Source: Candidatus Bipolaricaulota bacterium (GTDB taxonomy: Bacteria > Bipolaricaulota > Bipolaricaulia > UBA7950 > UBA9294). Taken from it: a DNA stretch of 64,000 bases. Position numbers and translations under genes: made by a program. This document shows positions 33,926 to 41,366 of the stretch, piece after piece (within the stretch, counting starts at the first letter, position 1; the number at the start of each line of letters is the position of its first letter). The DNA is taken from NCBI GenBank assembly GCA_028277345.1, contig JANQGM010000026.1, positions 62,001 through 126,000 of the forward strand. The letters run 5' to 3'. The notes beneath the pieces are model-generated. The model was not told the DNA's origin. It made no database searches and saw only the letters and a list, made by a program, of their open reading frames with translations.

Positions 33926-35242
33926 CTAGCGTTTGGAGGTCGGTGAAACGTTGTTGCCCGTTTCCGTCAATTTCGTGATCACACCCGTCGCGAAGATCAC
34001 CTTATACACCTGGTAATCGCCGGAGCCATCGGCTTTCACGTAGCAGATGCCGCTGCCATCCTCGAGCCAATAGGGGCAGAATTCGTCATCATCCGTCGTG
34101 ATCGCCGTGTTGAGCACGCCCAGTCCGTCGACGTAGTCTTCCAGTGATTCCGGATTCAATCCATCCGCGTCCATGATGTAGATATCGAGTTCTCCCGTCG
34201 TTCGCTCGCGGGAAAAGGCGATCTTCGCGCCATCCGGAGACCATGCAGGACGTGAGAACCCAGCGCCTGCAGGAAGGTTCAGCGCCGTTGTCGGAGCTGG
34301 AGCAAAGGCCGGCGAAGGGTCGCCATCGCGTCCATCCGAGTCATACAGCTCAATGGCGGCATTCAAGGAATCGTCCCAAAGCCAGATTGAACTTCCTCCG
34401 GTCGCCGTTTCGTTGGACACGAACACGACATCGTCATTGACCGGCGAATAGGCGGGAGCGATCGCCCACGAGGGCGTCTGCGTCGTCAATTTCGTCTGGT
34501 TGCCGCCAAGCGCCGTCATCGTATAAATCTCCCACGAAGTGGTCGAGGCGCCGTTGAGTTCGTTGGAGGCATAGGCCAGTGTGCTTCCATCCGAAGACCA
34601 GCTCGGCTGGATCTGATTGGACGCGGTCTGCGTCGTCAGCGGATTGGTGCTGAGCCCTTCGACTGTCATCGTATGGATATCCCAGCTCATCCCATCTTCA
34701 GCGGCATAGGCGATCTTGTCCCGCGTGCCTCGAACGAGATCGGGGAACAACTCGTCATCCGCCGTATTGCGAACAGTCCCTTGGCTGGATCCATCCGCTT
34801 CCATGCGGTAGATGTCGTACTGAGCGACGCGATTGGCGGCAAAAGTAATCATGACCGGGCCGATCGTCAGCACGCCGTTGACCATGCCAATACGCCCGTC
34901 ATTATCCGTGACGGTTAGCAGGACCGTATACGTGCCTTGTTCGTCATACTCATGCGTGATGACATCGGCAACATCGGTTCCTGTCGCATGCGTCGATCCG
35001 TCGCCGAAATCGATATCATAGGAGACGATGGTTCCATCCGGGTCATTGGACCCGCTGATGTCAAAGGTGAATGTCACCGGCACCTCGCTGTCTCCGGCCG
35101 AATCGGCAATCAACAGTGCAATCGGCGCCTGGCCGAAGAAACCACGACAAGCGGCCAGCCCCATTGCCAGTACAGCTAGCAGGCAGACAGCGGCTGCAAG
35201 TTTCACGTTCCTTTGGCCCGCTTTGGCTCGTGTCGCGGACAT
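33926..35242 (-). CDS. Lipoprotein with PKD and TolB-like beta-propeller domains
   Basis: This 438-residue protein has a signal peptide ending in the lipobox MGLAAC (Cys32). Next comes one PKD domain (about 36-125; SNDPDGTIVSYDIDFGDGS and GTYTVLLTVTDNDG), then WD40/PD40-type repeats with the WSSDGSTLAYAS and WSPDGAKIAFSRER pattern. Such proteins sit on the envelope as binding scaffolds; no enzyme motif is evident. AAGGAGGT precedes the ATG. It is monocistronic with its own terminator. Confidence 0.8.
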   Translation of the reverse strand: MSATRAKAGQRNVKLAAAVCLLAVLAMGLAACRGFFGQAPIALLIADSAGDSEVPVTFTFDISGSNDPDGTIVSYDIDFGDGSTHATGTDVADVITHEYDEQGTYTVLLTVTDNDGRIGMVNGVLTIGPVMITFAANRVAQYDIYRMEADGSSQGTVRNTADDELFPDLVRGTRDKIAYAAEDGMSWDIHTMTVEGLSTNPLTTQTASNQIQPSWSSDGSTLAYASNELNGASTTSWEIYTMTALGGNQTKLTTQTPSWAIAPAYSPVNDDVVFVSNETATGGSSIWLWDDSLNAAIELYDSDGRDGDPSPAFAPAPTTALNLPAGAGFSRPAWSPDGAKIAFSRERTTGELDIYIMDADGLNPESLEDYVDGLGVLNTAITTDDDEFCPYWLEDGSGICYVKADGSGDYQVYKVIFATGVITKLTETGNNVSPTSKR

Positions 35243-35449
35243 GTGTTGTGACCTCCTTAAGCTACCTCATCCAAACGTTTATGGGCCTCCAACTGCGCCC
35301 GGAATAGTCTACCCACGTCTGCAACCGGGTTTGTGGAACGCCGGACCGTTGCGTTCGGGGGCTTCGTCCTGGCCGGAGGTGACCAATGTCGTCCGCGAAA
35401 CCTGTGGGAGAAAAGGGTGTATATTGGGCACACCGAGGAGGCAGTACTA

Positions 35450-35989
35450 GTGTACCGTGTGCAAGACGAGGTGAGCTTGTTGAGAGCCTCACTACAAGGA
35501 GAAACAGGAGCTTGGGGTGAAATCGTCAGCCGCTACAAAGATGCTGTGTTCGGGTTGTGCCTCGGATTCATGCGAAATCGCGCGGATGCCGAGGACATCA
35601 GCCACGACGCGTTCATTCGCGCTTACATCAATCTACGCAAGTACGACTTGGAACGCCGGTTTTCAACGTGGCTGTTCACCATTGCCGCCAACCTCTGCCG
35701 GAATCAGCTTCGATACCGCAAGAACCACCCGTCAACCGAACAACCGCTTCAGATGGCGGGAGGAACGGATCCGGCGAAGCTCGTCTCAGCGGAAGATCGG
35801 CAAGCGAAGGTACGGGGGGCCCTTAACCAGCTTCCCTACAGCTACCGAGCACCGCTTGTCCTTCGGTTCTACAACGAACTGCCGTATCAAGAAATCTCGG
35901 AGATCCTCTCGATTCCAGAAGGAACCGTTAAGACTCGCATTCATCGAGGGAAAGCTATGTTGAAAGACCTACTAGAGGAAGGGGCGTGA
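35450..35989 (+). CDS. ECF-type RNA polymerase sigma factor
   Basis: This 179-residue sigma-70 family protein has region 2 (about 22-90; AEDISHDAFIRAY then RRFSTWLFTIAANLCRNQLR) and region 4 (about 115-175; LPYQEISEILSIPEGTVKTR). The start is GTG 35450, eight bases after a strong GAGGAGG; an upstream in-frame ATG at 35333 adds residues unlike any sigma factor. It is followed six bases later by a membrane protein in the anti-sigma position, so it probably responds to an envelope signal. Confidence 0.92.
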   Translation: MYRVQDEVSLLRASLQGETGAWGEIVSRYKDAVFGLCLGFMRNRADAEDISHDAFIRAYINLRKYDLERRFSTWLFTIAANLCRNQLRYRKNHPSTEQPLQMAGGTDPAKLVSAEDRQAKVRGALNQLPYSYRAPLVLRFYNELPYQEISEILSIPEGTVKTRIHRGKAMLKDLLEEGA

Positions 35990-35995
35990 TCCAGC

Positions 35996-36583
35996 ATGAA
36001 ACATGACGATTTGGATGTCCTGTTGCAGGACACGCTACGGGCTGAGGTCGCCGCGGCATCCGATCGCATCATCGATCTGGAGGAGCGGGTCGTTATGGAG
36101 TTGGGCGATCGCCGACCACGACTGCGTTGGTTCCAGTGGCTGGGACAACTGGCCGCACCCACGCGGGCGACGCGTTGGGGCCAGATCGCCGTCGTCGGAG
36201 CCACCGCCGCGGTCTTTCTGTTCCTCGGACTGACCTTGTCGGATCGGATCGCTCCGAACACCCCCGCGCCGCAGCTTTCTCTGCAGCGACTCGGTACCGC
36301 CGACGGGATGCAGAGCGTCCTTTTTGTCTGGCCCGCGCCGTTGGAAGCCGAATCGGTCGCCGTCGTCGGGAATTTCAACGCCTGGGAAGGAACCGATCTT
36401 TCCGATCCGGATGGGGACGGTATCTGGACCGCTCAGATTCCGCTCGCTCCTGGACGTTACGAATATGCCTTTGTCGTGGATGGAAAATGGCAGGGGCATG
36501 ATCCACGCGCGGACGAAGTCATCCAATCATTTGGGCAATACAGCTCCGTCCGCTATATCGGACGAGGAGGGGATGACGCATGA
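35996..36583 (+). CDS. Putative anti-sigma factor with extracytoplasmic CBM48-like domain
   Basis: This 195-residue protein has a helical N-terminus (1-50) and one transmembrane helix (about 63-82). The C-terminal beta-sandwich (about 105-190) matches the glycogen-binding CBM48/isoamylase N-terminal family: VAVVGNFNAWEG, DGDGIWTAQIPLAPGRYEY and FVVDGKW. The zinc motif HxxxCxxC of many anti-sigma factors is absent. Position, size and topology suggest that the N-terminus holds the sigma factor and the outer domain senses a carbohydrate or another ligand. This role is inferred, not shown. Confidence 0.72.
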   Translation: MKHDDLDVLLQDTLRAEVAAASDRIIDLEERVVMELGDRRPRLRWFQWLGQLAAPTRATRWGQIAVVGATAAVFLFLGLTLSDRIAPNTPAPQLSLQRLGTADGMQSVLFVWPAPLEAESVAVVGNFNAWEGTDLSDPDGDGIWTAQIPLAPGRYEYAFVVDGKWQGHDPRADEVIQSFGQYSSVRYIGRGGDDA

Positions 36584-37275
36584 GGATGCGAACAGCACGA
36601 ACCGCAGGTGTGCTCGTATTGCTGACGGCCGTCGTAATGTGTGCGGCCTCGGCTCAGGTTTCGCTTCAGGAGTTCGAGCGGGCACTTTACTCTATTCCCG
36701 CTTCCAATCCGGAATTCCTTCTTTCCACGATCGAGCTGGGCATGACACAAGAGGACTTCCCCGCCGAGCAGCTGCTTGGCCTTATCGAACGACTGGCCGA
36801 ACACCCGGGCGAACCGTTCGAGAAGGACGCCGTTCTAAATGTGCTGGCACATGCCTTGGAAGTCGGACTTCCCATCGAAGGATTGGTAAACAAGGCCTTT
36901 GAGGGGCTGGCCCGCCGAATTCCACTTCATCAATTGGAGAGTTGGTTGTCTCAACGGATGGTGCTGCTCGCTGAGACGCGAGACCTTCTTTATTCGAAGG
37001 GCATCTTCAGCGCGCCCTCCAGAGCGCCTCAGACCGTGCCGACAGCCATTCCCATGCCGCGATTCAACCTTCTGCTGATTCATATGTCGGAAGCGATCGG
37101 CGATTTCTTGGAGGGCGGTGGAAGTCCGTTTGACGGACACGTCCTGTATCAAGAGGTTTATAACCGGCTCACGATGCTTCAGGGCGTCACGCTGGTTCCG
37201 GATGACGTTCAGCTCGTCCTTGAGCGAATCGAGCCCTCGGATTTGACACAAGTTGCATTGGCTGCTGTAAGTTAA
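36580..37275 (+). CDS. Exported helical protein of unknown function
   Basis: This 231-residue protein has a signal peptide (VLVLLTAVVMCAASA, cleavage near residue 25). The mature part is mostly helical and Leu/Glu-rich and has no motif I recognise. A low-complexity linker PSRAPQTVPTAIPMPR separates two halves. The ATGA overlap with the putative anti-sigma gene puts it in the sigma operon, and the large PKD protein follows 49 bases on. It may be a regulatory or target component of the same envelope response. Confidence 0.7.
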   Translation: MRMRTARTAGVLVLLTAVVMCAASAQVSLQEFERALYSIPASNPEFLLSTIELGMTQEDFPAEQLLGLIERLAEHPGEPFEKDAVLNVLAHALEVGLPIEGLVNKAFEGLARRIPLHQLESWLSQRMVLLAETRDLLYSKGIFSAPSRAPQTVPTAIPMPRFNLLLIHMSEAIGDFLEGGGSPFDGHVLYQEVYNRLTMLQGVTLVPDDVQLVLERIEPSDLTQVALAAVS

Positions 37276-37324
37276 GACAGATCACGTGATTTCACATAGA
37301 AGGATCAGAGCAAAGGAGGCGAAC

Positions 37325-39943
37325 ATGAAAGGAAGAACAAGCAGGCTGGCACTTGCAGCCTTATTCTTGATCGCGTTCGCTGCATTCACGAGTTTGGGTC
37401 AAGACAATGTCGCCCCCTTGGGCATCTTCCCCGCACCTCCTGAGAGCAGTGAATTGGACGTCCGCGTGTGGGTCGATCAGGCCGCCTATCAGGTCGGCGA
37501 CCCGATCGTCATTCATTTCAGCGTCAACAAGCCGGCCTATATCTACATTTGGGATATTCTTCCCGATGGAACGGCTGTTCAGATGTTCCCGAATCCCGCT
37601 CCGGGCGGATCGCAGAACTTCGTCCAAGCCGGAGAACACACCGTTCCTGGCAATTGGGTCATCGCTCCGCCGTTGGGAACGGAATACGTGCAGATCCTGG
37701 CCACAACCTCGCCCGTGGATCCCTTTTCGTTCTTCACGCCGGATCCCCTGGCATTCCAATCGCAAGTCGAAGCCCAGATTCTCGGCATCCTTCCTGCGAC
37801 GGAAACCAGCTGGGACTTCACGTCCTTTGAGATTCTCGAAGGTGCTCCGGGCTCCTATGGGACGCTGATCATCAATTCGACGCCCGCCGGGGCTTCGGTC
37901 TCCATCGATGGCGAGTACGTTGGCTATACGCCCCGGACGCTCTATGTCGCCCAAGGATTCCATCAGATTTCCGTAAGCCATCCGGGATACCTTGGCTGGC
38001 AGGCGGCAACGCTCGTCATCGGGGGGATCACGCGCACGCTCAACGTCGAACTCGTGCCCCTGTTTCCATCCAATGCCGATCCGACAGCCAACTTCACCTA
38101 CTCGCCAGTGAATCCTCCGGTCGGTGCGTGGATTCAGTTTGACGGATCGTCATCCAGCGATTCAGACGGTACGATCGCCAGCTACAGCTGGAACTTCGGC
38201 GATGGCTCGACGGATTCGGGCGTCTCCCAATGGCATCGTTTCAATGCGCCGGGCACGTACATTGTCAGCCTGACAGTGACGGATAACGACGGCGCCAGCG
38301 ACACGATGACGCAAGCGGTTCAGGTCGGATCGTCCAACCAGCCGCCAAGTGCCGTCTTTACCGCGGTGCCCACCAACCCGATGGTCAATGCGTGGGTCCA
38401 ATTCGATGCCTCCGGATCTGTGGATGCGGACGGCTCCATCGTCACGTATGCCTGGAACTTCGGCGACGGGTCGACGGAAACCGGCACCCAGGTCTGGCAT
38501 CGCTTTACTGCCGCCGGCACCTATGTCGTCACCCTGACCGTCACCGACGATGACGGCAGTACCGATTCGACGTCGCTCGCCATTCAGGTCGGCCCCTCCA
38601 ACCAATCGCCGAACGCGGCTTTCGCGTTCTCGCCCTCCGTTCCCGGTGTGAACGCCTGGGTCCAATTCGATGCCACCTCGTCTTCGGATGTCGATGGCAC
38701 CATTGCGAATGTCGCCTGGAACTTCGGGGATGGCACCACCGACATCGGCAGCGTGGTCTGGCATCGTTTCCCAGCCGCGGGCACCTACATCGTGACCCTG
38801 ACGGTGACGGACAATGATGGCGCCACCGATATCATGACACAGTCGATTCTCGTTGGCGGCTCCGCCAATTCCGCGCCATCCGCCAGCTTCTCGTTGCTGC
38901 CCGCCTCGCCATCCATTGGCGAGTGGGTCCGGTTTGACGGAACCGGGTCCTCGGACAGCGATGGTTCCATTGCCTCGTATCAGTGGTCGTTTGGCGATGG
39001 CTCAGCTCCCGTGACGGGTCCCATCGTCTACCATCAATTCACCAGTGCCGGCGTCTACTCGGTCTCGCTGACCGTGGCGGACGACGACGGCGCAAGCGAC
39101 ACGGCGTCGCAGCCCGTCAGTATCGGAACGGTTCAACAGCCTCCGGTGGCCACGTTTAACTTCTCGCCGGCCGCCCCGGCAGTGGGACAATCCGTTGCCT
39201 TTGATGCATCGAGTTCCTTCGATCCGGATGGCGTCATCGTCAGCTATCGCTGGGATCTGGATGGCAATGGCGTCGATGATGCGTTCGTTCCGACGGTGAA
39301 CGCGACCTACAATTCGCCCGGCGTCGCGATGGTTCGATTGACGGTCATTGACAATGACGGCCTGTCGTCCACATCGACCCAAGCGGTTGTGGTGTCGTCA
39401 TCGGGCGGGACGCCCGGCGTTCCCGCCATGGGAGCGACGCCCGGCATCTTCGTCTGGGGATCGGACTCCTGGCACGTCACGGTGAATGCCGGCGCCGGAT
39501 GGAGCGCGCCGCGCGCGTACCGCCTGGAACTGCGATCGGATGACTCGTTCCAGAACATCGACCAATCGTCCAGCGGTGGCGTTGTTCCGCTTGGCATTCT
39601 CCCCGCACCGACGGATGAAGGACGAACCCTCGTCTTCGAGGGCACGATCCAAGCCGGAAGCGTGGATTATGAGTTCCGAGTTCCCAATTCGAGCAGCATG
39701 TGGATGAAGCTCCAACTGGATATCGACGGAGACGGCACCCTGGATACTTCATCGAGCTTCGTCTACCTGCGCCACTCGATGGTGCGTCCGCCGACCTCTC
39801 CGTTCGTTGTTGGGTTGCCCAACGGCAGCAGCGATGAACTGACGCCGAGCATCAATTTCCGCGTCGGTTCAGCCATCTCCTATACGGAGACCAGCCGGTT
39901 CGTCTTCTGGACCACCACGATCTCCAACTTGGAGGCTCCATAA
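37325..39943 (+). CDS. Exported DUF4384-PEGA-(PKD)5 surface protein
   Basis: This 872-residue protein has, in order, a signal peptide (1-25), a DUF4384 domain (about 40-150; a VGDPIVIHFSVNKPAYIYIW stretch) and a PEGA domain (about 178-245; STPAGASVSIDGEYVGYTPR). Five PKD repeats follow (about 255-700, each near 87 residues with NFGDGS/SFGDGS and GTYxVxLTVTDNDG). Then comes a C-terminal beta-rich region. AAAGGAGG precedes the ATG. DUF4384 and PEGA often occur on envelope proteins tied to signalling or outer-membrane assembly. It is the likely output or ligand-facing member of the ECF sigma operon. The gene ends with a strong terminator. Confidence 0.83.
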   Translation: MKGRTSRLALAALFLIAFAAFTSLGQDNVAPLGIFPAPPESSELDVRVWVDQAAYQVGDPIVIHFSVNKPAYIYIWDILPDGTAVQMFPNPAPGGSQNFVQAGEHTVPGNWVIAPPLGTEYVQILATTSPVDPFSFFTPDPLAFQSQVEAQILGILPATETSWDFTSFEILEGAPGSYGTLIINSTPAGASVSIDGEYVGYTPRTLYVAQGFHQISVSHPGYLGWQAATLVIGGITRTLNVELVPLFPSNADPTANFTYSPVNPPVGAWIQFDGSSSSDSDGTIASYSWNFGDGSTDSGVSQWHRFNAPGTYIVSLTVTDNDGASDTMTQAVQVGSSNQPPSAVFTAVPTNPMVNAWVQFDASGSVDADGSIVTYAWNFGDGSTETGTQVWHRFTAAGTYVVTLTVTDDDGSTDSTSLAIQVGPSNQSPNAAFAFSPSVPGVNAWVQFDATSSSDVDGTIANVAWNFGDGTTDIGSVVWHRFPAAGTYIVTLTVTDNDGATDIMTQSILVGGSANSAPSASFSLLPASPSIGEWVRFDGTGSSDSDGSIASYQWSFGDGSAPVTGPIVYHQFTSAGVYSVSLTVADDDGASDTASQPVSIGTVQQPPVATFNFSPAAPAVGQSVAFDASSSFDPDGVIVSYRWDLDGNGVDDAFVPTVNATYNSPGVAMVRLTVIDNDGLSSTSTQAVVVSSSGGTPGVPAMGATPGIFVWGSDSWHVTVNAGAGWSAPRAYRLELRSDDSFQNIDQSSSGGVVPLGILPAPTDEGRTLVFEGTIQAGSVDYEFRVPNSSSMWMKLQLDIDGDGTLDTSSSFVYLRHSMVRPPTSPFVVGLPNGSSDELTPSINFRVGSAISYTETSRFVFWTTTISNLEAP

Positions 39944-39958
39944 CCTAGCATCAACACG

Positions 39959-39987
39959 ACGGGCCGCCTTCGGGCGGCCCGTTTTTT
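39959..39987 (+). terminator. Terminator of the ECF sigma operon
   Basis: A 10-bp GC-rich stem (39959-39968/39973-39982) capped by a TTCG tetraloop is followed by six T. Confidence 0.95.
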
Positions 39988-40025: not shown

Positions 40026-41366
40026 ATGGAAAACCGAACCCTGTCAATCCATTGGAGATTGGACCATCCGAACATTCAACGCGATACCTTCTTCGGAAGA
40101 TACGCGTTTTCCGCCTACGATGCCGTTCTCATCGATCCGCACGAGATCGACCGCCGCTGGACGGCCGAGGTCGGGCTTAGCCCGGATGGTGTTCGCCGCG
40201 TTGATGTCCAACGCGACCGGGGACTGGGACGCACCTTGACTGCGTGGATGACCAAGCGGCGAACCGAATTGGAGGACTTGCTCAAGGTTGCAGGTGGAAT
40301 CGTCGTCTGCCGCTTGCGGTCCCGCGGAGAACCGTTGGAACTCCGCTCCGGCGATGCCCCTCCCGAACATGTCGATCGCTACAGTTGGCTCCCCAGCATC
40401 TCGCTGGTCGATCGCCATCATCAGTTGGTCTTTCCGTCGAACGGCCGGTTCGTGCCCCGCCGAGGCCGCGATGTCATCGTGGAGGACTCGACCAGCCCAT
40501 TTTCCGAGTACATCGAGCAGTTTCGCGATGCCTTTGTCTACGATGCCGTTTATCAAGATTTGCTATCGACGCCGATCGACCGCTTCGCGCAGGTTCTGGC
40601 TCGCAACAAGGTCGGGGATGTCCTCGCTTTGGAGATTCCTTTTGACGAAGGACGGCTGATTCTCGTTCCTCCGATAGAAGGCGTGTCGCCCAGTCACGAG
40701 GCTGCCGTGCTATCTGATGTCATTGAACGGATGACCGAACGTCCGGCCTTTTCCGCAAGTCCGGATTGGTTGCCCAGCTATCCACTGCCAGGCGAAGATG
40801 CCCTTAACGACGAGCTGGTTCGGTTGGTGGAGCGCCGAGACGCCCTCAACGACAAGCTTCGAGAGCTAAGTGAACGGCACGAAGAAATCACTCGATACAA
40901 GCGCATGCTGTACGCACGTGGGCGGTTCGCCTTCTTGCCCGCTGTTGCCGACGGCTTCCGCGCCCTCGGATTTGATGTCGAGATCGACGAGGGGATGCTC
41001 ACGCTTCGCTCTGAACAAGGAGATGCACGAGTGGTTGCGGCAGCCGCTGAAGGCGCAACCGTACAGTTGCCCGCGTACCGGCAGCTGCTTCACGCGATCG
41101 ATCGCGCGGTCACCGATGGGGATGGCCGGCTCAAGGGCATCTTGGTTGTCAGTGGTTCACGCGAGCTGGATCCCAAACGGCGACCGACGCAGTTCTCCGA
41201 GGGCGTTCTCCGCGGCTGCACCGATCAAGGGTACTGCGTTCTGTCCAGCACGCATTTGTTCCAGCTTGTGGTGACCGCGCTTGCATCAAAACGCGCCGAT
41301 CATGCGAAGGTGCGGCGACAGCTCATTGAGACCGACGGCGAATTCCGCGGAGCCGACGCTACGTGA
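40026..41366 (+). CDS. Unknown protein with coiled coil and a nuclease-fold-like C-terminus
   Basis: This 446-residue protein has no signal peptide or membrane helix. A charged central segment (about 258-300; ELVRLVERRDALNDKLRELS) is a likely coiled coil. Residues 300-430 show an order of elements seen in some PD-(D/E)xK-like domains: a LGFDVEIDEG strand, QLLHAIDRA helix, KGILVVSG strand and a final YCVLSSTHLFQLV. The expected catalytic E-x-K reads as an alanine run (VVAAAAEG), so any nuclease activity would be lost. The stop overlaps the mraY start by four bases. I do not recognise a characterised family. Confidence 0.55.
   Translation: MENRTLSIHWRLDHPNIQRDTFFGRYAFSAYDAVLIDPHEIDRRWTAEVGLSPDGVRRVDVQRDRGLGRTLTAWMTKRRTELEDLLKVAGGIVVCRLRSRGEPLELRSGDAPPEHVDRYSWLPSISLVDRHHQLVFPSNGRFVPRRGRDVIVEDSTSPFSEYIEQFRDAFVYDAVYQDLLSTPIDRFAQVLARNKVGDVLALEIPFDEGRLILVPPIEGVSPSHEAAVLSDVIERMTERPAFSASPDWLPSYPLPGEDALNDELVRLVERRDALNDKLRELSERHEEITRYKRMLYARGRFAFLPAVADGFRALGFDVEIDEGMLTLRSEQGDARVVAAAAEGATVQLPAYRQLLHAIDRAVTDGDGRLKGILVVSGSRELDPKRRPTQFSEGVLRGCTDQGYCVLSSTHLFQLVVTALASKRADHAKVRRQLIETDGEFRGADAT

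Follow-up and report, generated by a model that had tools for sequence, protein, structure and literature searches.

The RpoE-RseA-RseB operon of Escherichia coli encodes a sigma factor, a membrane anti-sigma factor, and an exported protein, in that order, and members of the RsgI family have a SigI partner and an N-terminal domain of the RsgI type. In the excerpts of PMC7406223 used here, class I anti-sigma factors of extracytoplasmic function (ECF) sigma factors, among them RsiW, RskA, and RseA, are encoded beside the ECF sigma gene and are often membrane-bound; the zinc motif is optional, and about 44% of the set in that paper lack it. In the RsgI/SigI system of Clostridium thermocellum, as described in an excerpt of PMC12203970, membrane anti-sigma factors sense outside substrates and RseP cuts the membrane helix. 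Herein, we analyzed a 64,000-nucleotide (nt) stretch (the window) of contig JANQGM010000026.1 from the 2.76 Mb genome of a Candidatus Bipolaricaulota bacterium. It carries an ECF sigma gene followed by genes for a membrane protein with an AMPK-type/CBM48 domain (the sensor), a helical exported protein (open reading frame 3, ORF3), and a large exported protein. We consider it fairly probable that this locus encodes a Bipolaricaulota switch in which an ECF sigma factor is paired with a transmembrane anti-sigma factor, with the AMPK-type/CBM48 domain as outer sensor and with its own operon and further exported-protein genes as targets. To our knowledge, little is known about signaling and the cell envelope of this phylum.

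The sigma gene (35450-35989, 179 residues; coordinates are on the + strand unless stated otherwise) begins with a GTG codon, which is also used in most relatives. Its product matched Pfam Sigma70_r2 (E = 1.5e-16) and Sigma70_r4_2 (5.2e-17). Only regions 2 and 4 were matched, without region 3, which places the protein in the ECF (sigma70 group IV) class, and the ECF superfamily model TIGR02937 was exceeded with 94.9 bits against a cut-off of 42.9. The nearest NCBIfam profile was SigW, at 150.9 bits and thus under its own cut-off of 209 bits, and SigI was absent from the best 25 of 102 NCBIfam matches.

The sensor gene (35996-36583) encodes 195 residues. About 60 N-terminal residues (1-63) precede a hydrophobic helix from residue 64 (at about 36185-36241), and a putative outer domain follows, whose best stretch (residues 108-173; 36317-36514) matched Pfam AMPK1_CBM (6.9e-10; 39.4 bits, cut-off 26.8) and CBM_48 (1e-5; 26.2 bits, cut-off 22.4). 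The closest solved relatives by sequence were AMPK beta-1 domains (1.2e-4) and a pullulanase (1.8e-4). For comparison, 35 loci picked by their sensor were read, comprising 34 hits from 33 related genomes and the window. Lysine and arginine were more frequent in the 25 residues before the helix than in the 25 after it in 33/35 sensors, and an N-inside topology with the CBM domain outside is therefore predicted; this prediction uses hydropathy only, and a second hydrophobic stretch was flagged in 3/35. The zinc motif HxxxCxxC occurred in 0/35 Bipolaricaulota sensors and 0/14 outgroup proteins.

ORF3 (36580-37275) shares 4 nt with the sensor gene and has a signal-like N-terminus by eye. It matched none of the families in Pfam or NCBIfam at E ≤ 1. 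Its structure model is all-helical, with a mean predicted local distance difference test score (pLDDT) of 90.9 and a predicted template modeling score (pTM) of 0.83. A Foldseek search of the PDB gave 162 matches, none of them at E ≤ 0.001, and the best VIA-align hit (Z 7.7) was a designed helical filament and hence uninformative. The place of ORF3, like that of RseB after RseA, suggests that it may be a co-sensor. The fourth gene (37325-39943) encodes an 872-residue protein with DUF4384 (4.8e-18), PEGA (1.3e-14), and five PKD stretches in Pfam. Its start was chosen by eye: the ATG at 37325, immediately preceded by AAAGGAGGCG, was judged better than the GTG at 37286 of the mechanical open frame. 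An intrinsic-terminator-like stem of 11 pairs with a T-run follows at 39958-39983, the strongest of 9 terminator-like sites found in a scan (mean of shuffles 4.0). The four genes are predicted to form one operon closed by this terminator. A first-pass annotation had described an ECF sigma gene with a membrane protein at the anti-sigma place, a CBM48-type domain on its outer side, no zinc motif, and two exported proteins, one of them DUF4384-PEGA-PKD5, ahead of a terminator; the profile matches, the single hydrophobic helix, the charge bias, and the terminator scan bear this out. Its interpretation of the locus as an envelope-polysaccharide sensor in control of a surface scaffold is supported in part.

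The layout is widely kept in the phylum. The sensor was found in 34/40 genomes, including its own, and in 37/38 of the best-quality Bipolaricaulota genomes. At E ≤ 1e-8 it was matched in 88/100 genomes, or 87 when discounting one matched only through a 682-residue frame that is perhaps a branching enzyme. Among named relatives, the nearest is contig JAGLYB010000045.1 of a 'Candidatus Bipolaricaulota' metagenome-assembled genome, whose sensor is 79% identical. The first-pass annotation had called for a comparison of gene order in relatives, and the sigma gene lay directly 5' of the sensor in 35/35 loci, overlapping it in 28 and standing 0-10 nt apart in 7. ORF3 accompanied the sensor in all 35 (29 by tblastn, the other six by hidden Markov model, HMM), and the two genes overlapped in 26/29 loci. 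A DUF4384-type gene lay 3' of these genes in 32/35 loci, three of them 4.5 kb off; one of the three loci without it is at a contig edge and two lack it over 8 kb. The fourth gene is therefore the least fixed member of the operon.

The search was extended with the sensor alignment as a profile over genome contigs, which gave 97 related places, of which 80 were kept. Sixty-two (L065-L126) are of the Bipolaricaulota kind, with a few differing titles; many are on the same contigs as the 34 relatives (e.g., L065 and L031), so they lack independence from the loci read. The other 18 (L127-L144) are Gemmatimonadota, Desulfo-named, Deltaproteobacteria, or unidentified. Sigma was found by HMM in 78/80 loci; in the two exceptions, L116 and L141, the sensor sits where the contig begins. 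Outside Bipolaricaulota, sigma stood beside the sensor in 17/18 loci. ORF3-like genes were present in 61/62 Bipolaricaulota-type loci and near the sensor in 12/18 of the others (E ≤ 1e-3). Bipolaricaulota and outgroup outer domains aligned with an hhalign E of 7e-35, and the ORF3 cores with 1.4e-12 over 60 columns. These matches point to a gene trio of sigma, CBM48 membrane protein, and ORF3 in at least three phyla, and the operon layout, as judged from gene order, is conserved beyond chance in and outside the phylum. Chance assembly of a common domain beside a common gene has a negligible probability: neither CBM48 nor ECF genes are rare, but the near-universal sensor, the fixed order, and the recurrence in other phyla already contradict it. 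As a separate observation, one 401-residue open frame (L135:1897-3099) was matched by both the sigma and sensor HMMs; it may be a fusion of sigma with anti-sigma or an artefact of sequencing. Long tails rich in Gly were seen in ORF3 relatives of the Desulfo type (L136:6551-7690 and L143:6317-7372).

The upstream regions of the sigma loci share the element GAAAC...GTGTATATTG. GAAAC-N14..19-GTATA was present in 32/35 upstream regions of 220 nt, while 200 shuffles gave a mean of 0.015 and a maximum of 1. Among the three misses, the site overlaps the chosen start in L059, L036 has GACAC, and L060 has GAAAC without the second half. In the window, GAAAC-N15-GTGTATA (35397-35423) matches the motif exactly and is a predicted autoregulatory ECF-type promoter before the sigma gene. 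It resembles the Bacillus subtilis SigW promoter. The first-pass annotation had proposed to look for this motif before the operon and before three polymerase genes. The first part held. The strict motif had no second site in the window, so it does not precede the polymerase genes, which were not located individually.

The pattern GAMACN{15,17}GTGTATA gave 25 sites in 14 genomes, compared with 2 for the reversed pattern. Twelve of these were the operon's own; of the other 13, 10 preceded exported-protein genes, two had no convincing gene, and one was antisense inside a PKD gene. The three strict sites in the source genome precede the operon, a secreted S8 protease (subtilase) with a laminin-G-like domain in Pfam (C34; L194:121-2715), and an exported protein rich in Cys (C33). 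The site was kept within two mismatches in 9/10 close orthologues of the Cys-rich gene, compared with 39/2000 random windows from the same loci; three of the 10 were discovery sites, leaving 6/7 new ones. Among weaker homologues, 2 of the 6 with readable upstream regions kept it at ≤2 mismatches, and a seventh had no hit. Other predicted targets in relatives were CARDB-CsgG proteins, VIT-VWA proteins, and one protein with a sub-cut-off FlgD-Ig match.

What the DNA itself shows is the order and overlap of the genes, the topology predicted for the sensor, the conserved promoter, and the sites before exported-protein genes; we infer sigma inhibition, proteolysis, a role for ORF3, and the nature of the ligand, as follows. 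The cytoplasmic helices of the sensor (about 60 residues) would hold sigma at the membrane. A state of the envelope would be sensed by the AMPK-type/CBM48 domain on the outside, probably jointly with ORF3, which is exported and co-translated, the ligand being most plausibly alpha-glucan-like or another envelope polysaccharide. On a signal, sigma would be freed, probably by regulated proteolysis including a site-2 protease; Peptidase_M50 was matched in the source genome (1.7e-59) and in all 14 control genomes. Freed sigma would then transcribe its own operon from GAAAC-N15..17-GTGTATA and drive a few exported-protein genes, namely those for the PKD/PEGA protein, the subtilase, and the Cys-rich protein, with CARDB-CsgG and VIT-VWA genes in relatives.

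A number of results weigh against this switch. For the promoter, the exact motif was found in 0/17 outgroup loci and was missing in 17/61 named Bipolaricaulota-type loci (present in 44/61). The upstream regions of these named loci were set by a rule of thumb; that of L130 covers almost the whole locus, and even there the motif was absent. A looser pattern gave 5 sites against 3 for the control in the source genome and was rejected as not specific; GAAACN{15,17}TGTATA gave 58 sites in 36 genomes against 22 for the reversed control. Seventeen of the 58 lie outside the operon and end in GTGTATA, and these strong sites mostly precede exported-protein genes, in line with the switch. A signal-like gene followed 11 of the first 14 examined, and 12/17 with the last three added. 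Exported genes were called by a simple hydropathy rule, with starts chosen by eye for the first 14; L240 was judged spurious though its short frame passed the rule. The sites without an exported gene were L186 (gyrA-like), L193, L198, L240, and L241, and the gene at the L179 site is 269 nt away. The 12/17 gave p = 3e-4 relative to 11/53 window genes and p = 0.018 relative to 20/53, when any start within 40 residues was allowed. Counted by gene family, the excess was weak (7/12; p = 0.014 and 0.16 for the two baselines). Of six weaker sites, two preceded signal-like genes, one a gene that is twin-arginine translocation (Tat)-like by eye, and three nothing convincing.

The N-terminal part of the sensor also counts on this side. 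No anti-sigma family was matched in Pfam at E ≤ 1, and its N-terminal profile found no solved anti-sigma factor in the PDB at E ≤ 10, the best match being unrelated (E = 0.22). The N-terminal parts of Bipolaricaulota and outgroup sensors match weakly (probability 26%). A model of the fused sigma-sensor read-through chain reached a pTM of 0.34 and a mean pLDDT of 62.6, its alignment comprising 20 sensor rows and 4 fused rows but 3 sigma rows, which starved the sigma half. When 22-24 sigma-only rows were included, the first helices of the sensor were misplaced. The missing anti-sigma domain and the poor fused model would fit a reading in which the sensor gene does not encode an anti-sigma factor but, like ORF3, an envelope protein under shared regulation, with sigma under some other control. 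We regard this as improbable, as the sensor gene directly follows sigma with an overlap or a gap of ≤10 nt in every locus, a single membrane helix with the N-terminus inside is predicted, and the same neighborhood recurs outside the phylum. From context, predicted topology, and gene overlap, the second protein is likely a membrane anti-sigma factor.

The remaining points against the switch concern its ligand. The two tryptophans of the AMPK beta domain stack on glucan. W130, which we take to be the first of them at the AMPK W100 position, was invariant in 35/35 Bipolaricaulota sensors and 14 aligned outgroup proteins. W165, presumably the second by its AMPK-beta position, was kept in 30/35 and missing in five. 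The second Trp is absent from three aligned Desulfo-type proteins and shifted one place later in most Gemmatimonadota, and Ala stands at the AMPK-beta K126 position in the alignment. Because the AMPK-type family outscores CBM_48, W165 is not universal, and the Desulfo-type proteins lack the second Trp, we only infer that the outer domain may sense a polysaccharide. The same switch could instead sense ORF3 or an envelope protein in the manner of RseA/RseB, with the CBM48-type domain serving as an Ig-like protein-binding module rather than binding sugar. This alternative is a serious but clearly less probable one. The order of sigma, membrane protein, and exported protein with overlapping genes, the ORF3 relatives near the outgroup sensors, the shared ORF3 core, and the variable second Trp speak for it. 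The invariant first Trp speaks for sugar binding, and a shared ligand is hinted at by 14/18 outgroup loci, each of which holds an additional ORF with a match to the sensor HMM. Of three such ORFs scanned with Pfam, those of L133 and L136 exceeded a CBM cut-off and that of L128 fell under it; by eye, the ORFs of L133 and L138 appear barrel-like and that of L136 a lipoprotein. The polysaccharide-sensing switch remains our preferred reading.

Around the operon, a conserved non-coding block, TTCGTC-N8-AGGTGA-N3-ATGTC (35363-35390, no strand given), lies directly 5' of the promoter and is possibly an operator or second promoter. It occurred once each in 8/24 genomes, always at the sigma locus. A search of 35150-35560 against Rfam gave a single match (E 1.9), taken as chance. 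An ATG after AGGTGACC 5' of the promoter was rejected as a gene, as the peptides differ. Farther upstream, a divergent lipoprotein-like gene (33926-35242, - strand) matched PKD and TolB-like propeller profiles and adjoins sigma in 26/34 relative loci. Downstream, a 446-residue protein (40026-41366) had no Pfam family over the cut-off and no NCBIfam match; a homologue (47-81% identity) lies 3' of the operon in 14/34 relative loci. The gene after it is MraY-like by eye.

A broader picture can be offered tentatively. The trio may represent cross-phylum surveillance of envelope glucan, in which the inner-membrane anti-sigma factor and, in Gemmatimonadota and Desulfo-type loci, a second exported CBM48 protein from that locus, barrel-like or lipoprotein-like, would read the same glycan, with the helical 'EGLAKGVP' ORF3 as an extracytoplasmic go-between; in Bipolaricaulota it would be a near-universal regulator of the surface. 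The candidate regulator spans the phylum, its promoter motif is defined, its predicted targets are few, and its sensor domain belongs to a family with a known usual ligand. Purified components would thus allow the ligand, the anti-sigma function, and the regulon to be addressed one by one.

A literature search, whose scope did not include the main ECF classification paper, returned no description of the trio of sigma, CBM48 membrane protein, and ORF3. Within the excerpts of the sources cited above, outside-sensing and zinc-less anti-sigma factors are already described, and the CBM48-type sensor with ORF3 appears to be what is new. The locus is like the excerpted RsgI system in pairing a candidate membrane anti-sigma factor with an outer sensing domain. 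It differs in that no RsgI-type N-terminal domain was among the sensor's Pfam matches at E ≤ 1, the sigma factor is nearest SigW, the outer domain is of the AMPK/CBM48 kind, and no carbohydrate-active enzyme was seen among the predicted targets scanned. With class I anti-sigma factors, as excerpted, it shares the position beside an ECF sigma gene, the predicted membrane location and missing zinc motif of many of them, and a SigW-like promoter, while its short cytoplasmic part has no recognizable known anti-sigma domain and its outer part is CBM48. The gene order is that of RpoE-RseA-RseB, but ORF3 differs in being all-helical and outside any Pfam family. Finally, the sensor has the domain family and the first glucan-stacking Trp of the AMPK beta glycogen-binding domain; unlike AMPK beta, it bears Ala at the K126 equivalent and carries the domain on a putative membrane signaling protein, predicted to lie outside the cytoplasm.

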